Shown here: positions 20,133-21,827 of the stretch, in pieces
Layout: each line of letters starts with the position of its first letter
How positions within the stretch are numbered: position 1 is the stretch's first letter
Assembly: GCF_900638025.1 (NCBI RefSeq)
Contig: NZ_LR134481.1
Span: 1,054,001-1,118,000 of the forward strand
Length of the DNA: 64,000 nucleotides
From: Haemophilus parainfluenzae
GTDB lineage: Bacteria; Pseudomonadota; Gammaproteobacteria; Enterobacterales; Pasteurellaceae
Reading direction: 5' to 3'
Translations under genes and position numbers: made by a program
Notes under the pieces: generated by a model
Seen by the model: only the letters and a program-made list of their open reading frames with translations
What the model was told of the DNA's origin: nothing
Databases searched by the model: none

Positions 20133-21485
20133 TTAAAGGGTCATGGCTGCAATCCAACCGAATGTTAATAATGGGATATTGTAATGCATAAAAGTTGGTA
20201 TAACTGAATCCCAAATGTGGTCGTGTTTACCATCCATATTTAAACCGGATGTTGGCCCAAGTGTGGAGTCAGAAGCCGGTGAACCCGCATCCCCTAGTGC
20301 CGCCGCTACACCTACGATAGCCACTGTCGCAAGTGGTGAGAAACCAAAAGAGAGACAAAGAGGTACATAAATTGAGGTGATAATTGGTACAGTTGAGAAG
20401 GAAGAACCAATACCCATAGTAATCAATAACCCAACGAGTAACATTAAGAATGCCGCAACGCCTTTACTTTGAATCGCACCAGTTGAAAGTGCATCAACTA
20501 AATCTTGTACACCACTTGTGGTATTAATGACATTAGCAAAACCAGAAGCTGTAATCATAACAAAGCCGATCATCGCCATTAAACGTAAGCCTTGTTGGAA
20601 AATGTCATTACTTTCTTTGAGTTTGAAGATACCGAATACACCGAAAATGACTAAACCGACTAAACCACCAATAATTGTTGAGCTTGTGAAAAGCTGTGTA
20701 GCAAAAGTAGCGACAATAGCAACCGCACTTGCAGTAATTTGAATAGGTGTAATGTTCGCAATGTGTTGTTCAATTTCGGTTGTCGTTGGCTCGGTAGTTG
20801 TTACTACATATTCACGTGGTTTACGATAGGTAATAAATACAGCAGTGAGTAAACCAAGAATCATGCCTGAAACAGGGATAAGCATAGCAAGGGAAACTTC
20901 ACCTACGCTGGTTTGTAATCCGAGTGGTGCACCAGCAAGATTGATATTTTTGACTAACACGCTCTCAATGAAAATTTTTCCAAAACCAACAGGTAAGATC
21001 ATATAGGTTGCGGTTAAACCAAAGGTAATAATACAGGCCACTGCCCTGCGGTCAATTTTTAAACGGTTAAAAATAGAAAGTAAAGGCGGTAAAACAATTG
21101 GAATAAATGCAATGTGTACTGGTAGCAAATTTTGGGATGAAATAGCAAATAAGAGTAAAATGCTAAGCAGAATATATTTAAACCACGCTAAATTTTTACC
21201 GGTTGGTGTTTTGTTCATTCGGGTAATCATTTTGTAGGCAAGCAAATCAGTAATGCCGGATTTTGAAATCGCAATGGCAAATGCACCGAGCATCGCATAG
21301 TTCATCGCTACTTCAGCACCACCACCTAAGCCGCCTGTAAAGGTTTCAATGGTTTTAGTTAAACCCAAGCCACCACCTAAGCCTGCGGTCAGAGCGGAAA
21401 TCACCAGTGCGATAATCACGTTTAAGCGTAGCAAGCTTAACGCCAGTAGCACGGCAATTGAAATAACAACGGGATTCGATAACAT
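20133..21485 (-). CDS. YuiF/NhaC-like transporter, predicted histidine transporter
   Basis: Inner-membrane transporter of 450 residues with roughly eleven or twelve hydrophobic segments. It contains G-L-G-G-G-L-G-L-T-K-T and, late, A-L-G-D-A-G-S-P-A-S-D-S-T-L-G-P, typical of the Na+/H+ antiporter-like (YuiF/NhaC) superfamily. It would commonly be annotated as a sodium/proton antiporter. The upstream leader is a histidine attenuator (21583-21731), so the natural substrate is more likely histidine or a histidine precursor. This agrees with published predictions, as I recall them, that YuiF-type proteins carry histidine. Its SD (AAGGA) overlaps the stop of a mini-ORF 14 bases upstream. An efficient terminator separates it from priC. 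Confidence 0.82.
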   Translation of the reverse strand: MLSNPVVISIAVLLALSLLRLNVIIALVISALTAGLGGGLGLTKTIETFTGGLGGGAEVAMNYAMLGAFAIAISKSGITDLLAYKMITRMNKTPTGKNLAWFKYILLSILLLFAISSQNLLPVHIAFIPIVLPPLLSIFNRLKIDRRAVACIITFGLTATYMILPVGFGKIFIESVLVKNINLAGAPLGLQTSVGEVSLAMLIPVSGMILGLLTAVFITYRKPREYVVTTTEPTTTEIEQHIANITPIQITASAVAIVATFATQLFTSSTIIGGLVGLVIFGVFGIFKLKESNDIFQQGLRLMAMIGFVMITASGFANVINTTSGVQDLVDALSTGAIQSKGVAAFLMLLVGLLITMGIGSSFSTVPIITSIYVPLCLSFGFSPLATVAIVGVAAALGDAGSPASDSTLGPTSGLNMDGKHDHIWDSVIPTFMHYNIPLLTFGWIAAMTL

Positions 21486-21499
21486 ATTGTTGTTCCTTA

Positions 21500-21556
21500 T
21501 TAATTAAAAGAAAAAGGTCGCATAAAAGAAAATTGATTTAAGGTTAAATGTCGCAT
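21500..21556 (-). CDS. 18-residue mini-ORF between attenuator and transporter
   Basis: ATG at 21556, preceded by AGGAG at 9 bases, encodes M-R-H-L-T-L-N-Q-F-S-F-M-R-P-F-S-F-N, then tandem TAA stops. It ends 14 bases before the transporter ATG, and its stop region forms the transporter's own SD. It lies downstream of the attenuator's terminator, so it is made only on read-through transcripts. A role in translational coupling is an inference; expression is unproven. Confidence 0.45.
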   Translation of the reverse strand: MRHLTLNQFSFMRPFSFN

Positions 21557-21582
21557 AGTTATAAACTCCTGTAATTGGTAAT

Positions 21583-21617
21583 AAAACAAAACCCCTCGAA
21601 AGTTGCCTTCCGAGGGG
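21583..21617 (-). terminator. Attenuator terminator upstream of the predicted histidine transporter
   Basis: On the minus strand the arms CCCCTCG and CGAGGGG, extended by GAA/TTC, close a stem (21592-21617) followed by TTTTGTTTT. It is the terminator (3:4) hairpin of the histidine leader. Confidence 0.85.
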
Positions 21618-21686
21618 TAAGATTTTTTTGATCTTTATCTTGTCAGCTCGGAAGAAATCTTCCAAGCACGCCAACAGCCTGAAAGA
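21618..21686 (-). promoter_or_regulatory. Pause and antiterminator region of the histidine attenuator
   Basis: After the leader peptide stop the minus strand can form a pause hairpin (GGAAGA/TCTTCC with GCT/AGC flanks). Alternatively, CTTCCGAG (21654-21647) can pair with CTCGGAAG (21614-21607), which is the 5' arm of the terminator. The two pairings exclude each other, so ribosome stalling at His codons would favour the antiterminator. This is the standard 1:2 / 2:3 / 3:4 layout. Confidence 0.8.
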
Positions 21687-21731
21687 TTATTCAGTTGAAT
21701 GACGATGATGGTGACGAAGGATAAAGTTCAT
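21687..21731 (-). CDS. Histidine-rich leader peptide (hisL-like)
   Basis: A 14-codon ORF reads M-N-F-I-L-R-H-H-H-R-H-S-T-E, then TAA. Four of the 14 residues are His, three of them consecutive, like HisL leaders of his operons but in front of a transporter gene. A weak GAG SD precedes the ATG. The stop lies 33 bases before the left part of the pause/antiterminator elements. The peptide's role is to sense charged tRNA-His by ribosome stalling; this follows from the attenuator architecture and has not been tested here. Confidence 0.82.
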   Translation of the reverse strand: MNFILRHHHRHSTE

Positions 21732-21827
21732 TTGAAACTCGCTTATTTAGATAACTAAATTGAACTATATTTTAAAATACGGTAAAGCGAAAACGATTGC
21801 AAGTTTTTTCTAGAAAAATTTTAAAAA

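Follow-up and report, generated by a model that had tools for sequence, protein, structure and literature searches.

The minus strand of the window (the whole 64,000-nucleotide stretch of Haemophilus parainfluenzae DNA that was analysed) carries, at 21591-21731, a complete his-type attenuator consisting of a leader peptide, a pause hairpin and mutually exclusive antiterminator and terminator helices. Behind it lies yuiF, which encodes a predicted transporter (Table 1). The leader matches the Rfam family His_leader (RF00514) over the full model (1-126) with 73.2 bits (E = 1.1e-9), above the curated cut-off of 49, and is an ordinary member of this known RNA family. Its folding z score is -6.7, with 0 of 200 shuffled sequences folding equally well. 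As is characteristic of his-type attenuators, an ORF with a run of His codons (4 of 14) stands ahead of the hairpins, and the terminator and antiterminator folds exclude one another and are supported by covariation. The parts named in the original prediction reappeared when the region was re-read: the 14-codon ORF with four His codons holds, the pause hairpin following it was found as A:B, the 8-base pairing said to exclude the terminator is exactly D:E, and the terminator, placed near 21583-21617, has a 12-pair stem with a U-tract. Folding of the 5′ leader, proposed there as a check, recovered both alternative folds, and the 10-bp B:C antiterminator helix is an addition to the features described earlier. 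The probable promoter has 8 of 12 consensus bases by our own count, which is below the scan threshold and explains its omission by the promoter scanner; hexamers resembling TTGCAA and TATTTT occupy the same location in 12 other yuiF upstream regions that we inspected.

Table 1 Features of the yuiF leader region in the window
Feature	Position	Strand	Details or basis
Probable promoter, TTGCAA (21802-21797), 17 nt, TATTTT (21779-21774)	21774..21802	-	Read from sequence
his leader peptide ORF, MNFILRHHHRHSTE	21687..21731	-	14 codons, four His (CAC CAT CAT CGT CAT)
A:B pause hairpin, 21694-21690 with 21683-21679, overlaps leader stop codon	21679..21694	-	Folding, alignment
B:C antiterminator helix, 10 bp, 21686-21677 with 21667-21658; excludes A:B and C:D	21658..21686	-	Folding, covariation
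C:D hairpin, 9 bp, 21667-21659 with 21654-21646; holds D apart from E	21646..21667	-	Folding, alignment
D:E antiterminator helix, 8 bp, 21654-21647 with 21614-21607	21607..21654	-	Folding, covariation
E:F intrinsic terminator, stem 21618-21607 with 21602-21591 (12 pairs), then U-tract	21581..21618	-	Folding, covariation
Second short ORF, MRHLTLNQFSFMRPFSFN, AGGAG upstream, between terminator and yuiF	21500..21556	-	Read from sequence
yuiF, 450-aa transporter, predicted histidine importer	20133..21485	-	PF13726 + PF03553

When segment A was masked and arm F was absent, the lowest-energy fold combined B:C with D:E; with arm F present, the terminator fold was the more stable, even without A. Because the terminator wins once F exists, antitermination must be kinetic and, like that of other attenuators, depend on timing. 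By analogy with those attenuators, we infer that the switch would depend on the ribosome. With charged tRNA-His in short supply, the ribosome would stall at the leader His codons and mask segment A, whereupon B would pair with C and D with E, the terminator would come too late and yuiF would be transcribed. When histidine is plentiful, the ribosome would reach the stop codon, C:D and then E:F would form, and transcription would stop before yuiF. Histidine import would in this way be switched on when charged tRNA-His runs short.

A further check proposed at the outset was to align the leaders of orthologues and look for conserved His codons and covarying stems, and both are found: each of the 57 Pasteurellaceae yuiF leaders keeps three to six His codons, and both folds covary. 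We compared the 44 distinct sequences among these leaders (alignment A1) and a wider set of 42 leaders from three target classes (alignment A3), made up of 20 of the 44 yuiF, 8 of 9 binding-protein and 14 of 19 his-gene leaders. In A1, 98.7% of cells are paired in the termination fold and 99.6% in the antitermination fold; when the partners were slid by 1-3 columns, just 26-65% remained paired. The corresponding values for A3 are 96.1% and 99.4%. Both sides have changed at seven pairs of the termination fold and three of the antitermination fold in A3, where the E:F terminator has such changes at 5 of its 12 pairs. At columns 69/87 of A1, a B:C pair occurs as AU in 30 sequences, GC in 12 and GU in 2, and one D:E pair in A3 as GC in 36, AU in 5 and GU in 1. 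None of 500 shuffles reached any of the covariation scores of the two folds in the two alignments. The shuffle control is in part modest for the number of pairs with changes on both sides, which in A1 was matched by 4 of 500 shuffles for the termination fold and 27 of 500 for the antitermination fold, and in A3 by 22 and 12 of 500, respectively. At the level of sequence, these comparisons show the parts of the attenuator and how they pair.

The two short ORFs upstream of yuiF have changed in different ways. Among the 10 genomes of the genus that carry the leader, all 3 distinct codon changes in the leader peptide are synonymous. In the second short ORF, all 5 distinct changes counted across the genus are nonsynonymous (G076, in which the downstream frame differs, was left out of this count); there is therefore no sign of selection on its peptide, and selection at that level was rejected. 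An equivalent is kept in 21 of 42 clade-A leaders, starting with MRH, MQH or MQRH; these equivalents begin with one to three His codons, and the one in G058 reaches MQRHHHY. Some other clade-A leaders hold decayed versions, and the nine of the Aggregatibacter group hold none. A role of the second ORF in ribosome loading before yuiF is possible.

We found yuiF in 138 of 140 Pasteurellaceae genomes. An ORF with a His run occurs in the 500 bases upstream of 60 of these genes, compared with 4.4% of shuffled regions (122 of 2760) and, on the reverse strand, 1 region in 138. Three of the 60 cases (G013, G069 and G082) were dropped as not leader-like, so that leader and terminator stand on 57 of the 138 genes and 81 are leaderless. 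The original prediction had held that orthologues without such a leader would count against it; leaderless orthologues do exist in number, but this is not decisive, as 57 keep the leader, and the remainder would be leaderless because the leader was recruited in some lineages only. In a YuiF tree built by a quick method from 81 rows (the window and 80 named loci, each of which was assigned to a surveyed genome through identical upstream sequence), the leaders group in two clades, and the state, leader or no leader, changes five times; one locus (L213) was relabelled leaderless for this purpose, having a pattern match without a His run in a genome, G082, that has no RF00514 match. The first leader clade comprises Haemophilus, Aggregatibacter and Rodentibacter, mostly with the order rnt - leader - yuiF - priC. 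The second comprises Glaesserella, Ursidibacter, Otariodibacter, Bibersteinia and their kin, where rnt and priC were looked for near yuiF and neither was found. Measured between tblastn ends, the rnt-yuiF gap is 36-227 bases long in 37 leaderless pairs and 311-741 bases long in 25 pairs with the leader. Elsewhere in the order, 600 bases at each of 56 orthologues (40 + 16) held no His-run leader; weak His-pattern ORFs in 3 of the 40 and 1 of the 16 were judged by eye as not leader-like. Given this absence among the outside orthologues, the leader was most likely recruited to yuiF within Pasteurellaceae, and the leader counts are compatible with gain as well as loss.

Some loci in this survey stand apart. 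Within the leader clade, the two Rodentibacter species at L181 and L186 are leaderless, with a short rnt-yuiF gap, and both keep hisD. A record titled Pseudomonas stutzeri NCTC11607 (L196) has a Rodentibacter-like yuiF locus that groups with Pasteurellaceae, and is probably a mislabelled strain. In G079, the sole genome of the genus with hisD, the leader is absent from yuiF, and the upstream region (L079) has retained a promoter-like sequence of similar type, together with an inverted repeat that is rich in GC and has a T run.

The genome that contains the window (H. parainfluenzae group) was searched for hisD and hisG. Both are absent, as they also are from 9 of 10 other genomes of the genus, and histidine auxotrophy is therefore predicted. 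In H. influenzae type f, where the his operon has been lost, growth tests have shown auxotrophy (PMC3928620). The yuiF leader is the only RF00514 match above the cut-off in the genome of the window; a second match (L002, 35.6 bits, below the cut-off), which falls on the 3′ end of a gene that we read as LysR-type and on the adjoining hairpin, was rejected as chance. Across the family, yuiF is kept in 36 of 37 genomes without hisD. The leader stands on 26 of these 36 yuiF genes, leaving 10 leaderless, versus 31 of 102 in genomes with hisD (Fisher p = 2.2e-5). Phylogenetically independent pairs gave no support for a leader excess in hisD-less genomes, and as far as can be told the excess reflects shared ancestry; we therefore do not claim that losing his genes drove the recruitment of leaders.

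His leaders also stand before genes other than hisG and yuiF. Among 13 such places that we opened, five precede a DppA/HbpA-like SBP_bac_5 protein (L317, L318, L319, L326 and L329), three precede hisC (L323, L327 and L328; TIGR01141 402-405 bits, cut-off 276.55) and five are from Mannheimia (L320, L321, L322, L324 and L325), where the leader stands before a RhuM-family gene or genes without a clear link. These five are apparent remnants after his-gene loss; the relative L323 has hisC there. Six more places comprise four before the same kind of DppA/HbpA-like protein (L360, L362, L363, where the gene is broken, and L364), one without a same-strand gene nearby (L361) and one sub-cut-off match without a His ORF (L365). 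Another leader (L334, in G085) is interrupted by a contig end, and G005 has, by coordinates, one leader 5′ of hisD. Among the places opened, which take in part of the his-gene leaders, leaders away from hisG and yuiF thus stand before hisC in three cases, before DppA-like genes in nine and before hisD in one, the remainder being remnants or without an assigned target; beyond these places, the scan also gave sub-cut-off RF00514 matches of 34-42 bits.

The DppA/HbpA-like targets are distributed over nine Pasteurellaceae genomes. Four intact proteins score 785-801 bits for DppA (cut-off 1005) and 438-450 bits for SapA (cut-off 560), and are therefore relatives of DppA and not certified DppA; the nearest solved relatives of the one protein examined (L329) are dipeptide-binding proteins and haem-binding protein A. 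A His-run leader was present at 7 of 30 sampled binding-protein places; two of the 23 leaderless ones, L376 and L379, offer only 249 and 77 upstream bases. By coordinates, the gene immediately behind leader-controlled yuiF on the same strand encodes such a binding protein in seven other genomes (G047, G048, G103, G104, G135, G136 and G137). Inspection of L235, L239 and L242 confirmed such a gene 184-210 bases past yuiF, an arrangement that suggests a joint operon. In G084, which lacks hisD and has a leaderless yuiF, the sole His leader sits on a binding-protein gene. Leaders on binding-protein genes, and such genes behind leader-controlled yuiF, suggest a histidine-acquisition regulon. On balance, and with some reserve, we favour the view that the his attenuator is a portable module of such a regulon in Pasteurellaceae, placed on yuiF in two clades and separately on genes of DppA/HbpA-like proteins that would import histidine-bearing peptides, with his-less genomes, that of the window among them, keeping the importer alone. 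In those genomes the regulon would have shrunk to the importer, and the old biosynthesis switch would therefore read only imported histidine.

The 450-residue protein encoded at the locus is the YuiF/NhaC-like transporter of the original prediction: PF03553 (247.5 bits, gathering score 23) and PF13726 (114.3 bits, gathering score 29.8) both score above threshold, and we take this pair to mark YuiF. From its position next to rnt and priC, we assume that the gene is the orthologue of H. influenzae HI0325. HI0325 is labelled as a Na+/H+ antiporter (PMC3877243). Pfam gives both domains the same name and the public names examined agree, in keeping with the original expectation that the usual annotation would miss a link to histidine. 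A PDB sequence search with YuiF returned no related structure, only weak, chance-like matches with E up to 1. The predicted structure is a moderate model (mean pLDDT 75.7), for which the best 50 Foldseek rows are mostly INDY/NaS, MtrF/YdaH and TRAP proteins, the last being membrane subunits. The best matches are Na+-coupled dicarboxylate symporters and NaS1, with TM scores of 0.32-0.50 in the first 18 rows, and the predicted fold resembles that of Na+-coupled organic-solute transporters. Row 10 is MleN (9a59_A, integrative model), which we take to be an NhaC-type antiporter; the fold is therefore compatible with exchange as well. Among proteins described as relatives, SAUSA300_0846 of S. aureus, called both YuiF-type and NhaC-type, is reported as the main histidine transporter; the mutant lost 3H-histidine uptake, and complementation brought it back (PMC10817146). 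In Firmicutes, YuiF is placed in HisR and T-box(His) regulons and listed as a histidine permease (PMC9413887).

We consider it very likely that a his-operon-type, ribosome-mediated transcription attenuator controls yuiF and that YuiF is most likely a histidine importer, not mainly a Na+/H+ antiporter. A gene switched on at histidine shortage, in a genome without hisG and hisD, argues for this function, and the simplest account is that YuiF brings in histidine or a closely related compound. The import that the original prediction proposed is supported as the best reading by the leader context, the loss of his genes and the S. aureus YuiF-type transporter; coupling to a cation is probable. The same attenuator could also serve a YuiF that moves a relative of histidine, be it a His dipeptide such as carnosine, histamine or another imidazole, with histidine as the end product sensed. 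The switch would respond to charged tRNA-His and not to the substrate, and the DppA-like peptide-binding genes that carry the leader in nine genomes or follow yuiF in seven would fit such a role; uptake of free histidine by the S. aureus YuiF-type protein (PMC10817146) argues against it, and we regard it as unlikely.

A working attenuator in front of what is mainly a Na+/H+ or K+/H+ antiporter, tied to histidine supply through pH balance, for example, strikes us as very improbable. The Pfam and public names, the presence of MleN among the fold matches and a preprint, cited in PMC10817146, on K+/H+ antiport by SAUSA300_0846 would be in keeping with it, whereas the other leader places opened mostly concern histidine supply genes, the moderate structural model looks like organic-solute transporters in its leading matches, and none of five other S. 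aureus antiporter mutants has the acid phenotype of 0846 (PMC10817146). A further reading, in which the leader is a decayed his-operon remnant that stands before yuiF by chance, has a parallel in those Mannheimia His leaders that stand as remnants before unrelated genes. It is barely credible for a leader that two clades have conserved, whose folds covary and whose peptide shows only synonymous changes, and which in the clade of the window sits in an enlarged rnt-yuiF gap.

Histidine import under a his-type attenuator has counterparts in known systems. The leader shares with the his-operon His_leader of E. coli and Salmonella (RF00514) the His-run peptide, segments A-F, the choice between B:C plus D:E and C:D plus E:F, and the terminator before the first gene; what sets the window leader apart is its target, a transporter gene, and its setting, a genome that lacks both hisG and hisD. 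The YuiF permeases of Firmicutes, which we liken by name, have the same starvation-control logic, but are described as controlled by the HisR repressor or T-box(His), whereas ribosome attenuation would control yuiF in the window; the auxotrophs Alloiococcus and Dolosigranulum are reported to have T-box-controlled yuiF (PMC9413887). SAUSA300_0846, likened by description only, is described as YuiF-type and NhaC-annotated, like the window protein, but belongs to another phylum and has another regulator (PMC10817146). For Gram-positives, a role of YuiF as histidine permease has already been published (PMC9413887, PMC10817146), which bears out the original caution that the idea may not be wholly new. 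Judged from titles, the papers naming YuiF in the literature searched include none on Pasteurellaceae. An analysis of proteobacterial attenuators by Vitreschak et al. (2004) reportedly exists and may already list Pasteurellaceae yuiF. A scan of nine Pasteurellales genomes with RF00514, which has a category of RNA-regulated histidine transporters, may list the Pasteurellaceae yuiF leader too (PMC3766115). For His leaders on binding-protein genes, our literature search, with most subscription journals outside its scope, found no prior report; what appears to be new is the leader on binding-protein genes and its occurrence in two clades.

Histidine import by YuiF would correct a misleading Na+/H+ antiporter annotation of a protein shared by almost the whole family (138 of 140 genomes), human commensals and pathogens included, and predicts a route by which histidine auxotrophs among Pasteurellaceae obtain this essential amino acid. 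The DppA-like binding proteins would be testable new members of a histidine regulon; if the regulon reading is true, they import histidine-bearing peptides, beyond general dipeptides or haem. The locus would also illustrate clearly how a switch that belongs to biosynthesis has been transferred to genes for uptake. In Actinobacillus pleuropneumoniae, too, an amino-acid-sensing leader is reported to adjoin a Na+/H+ antiporter-family gene; that leader is a lysine riboswitch, whereas the window leader is, in our reading, a ribosome attenuator (PMC4986893).
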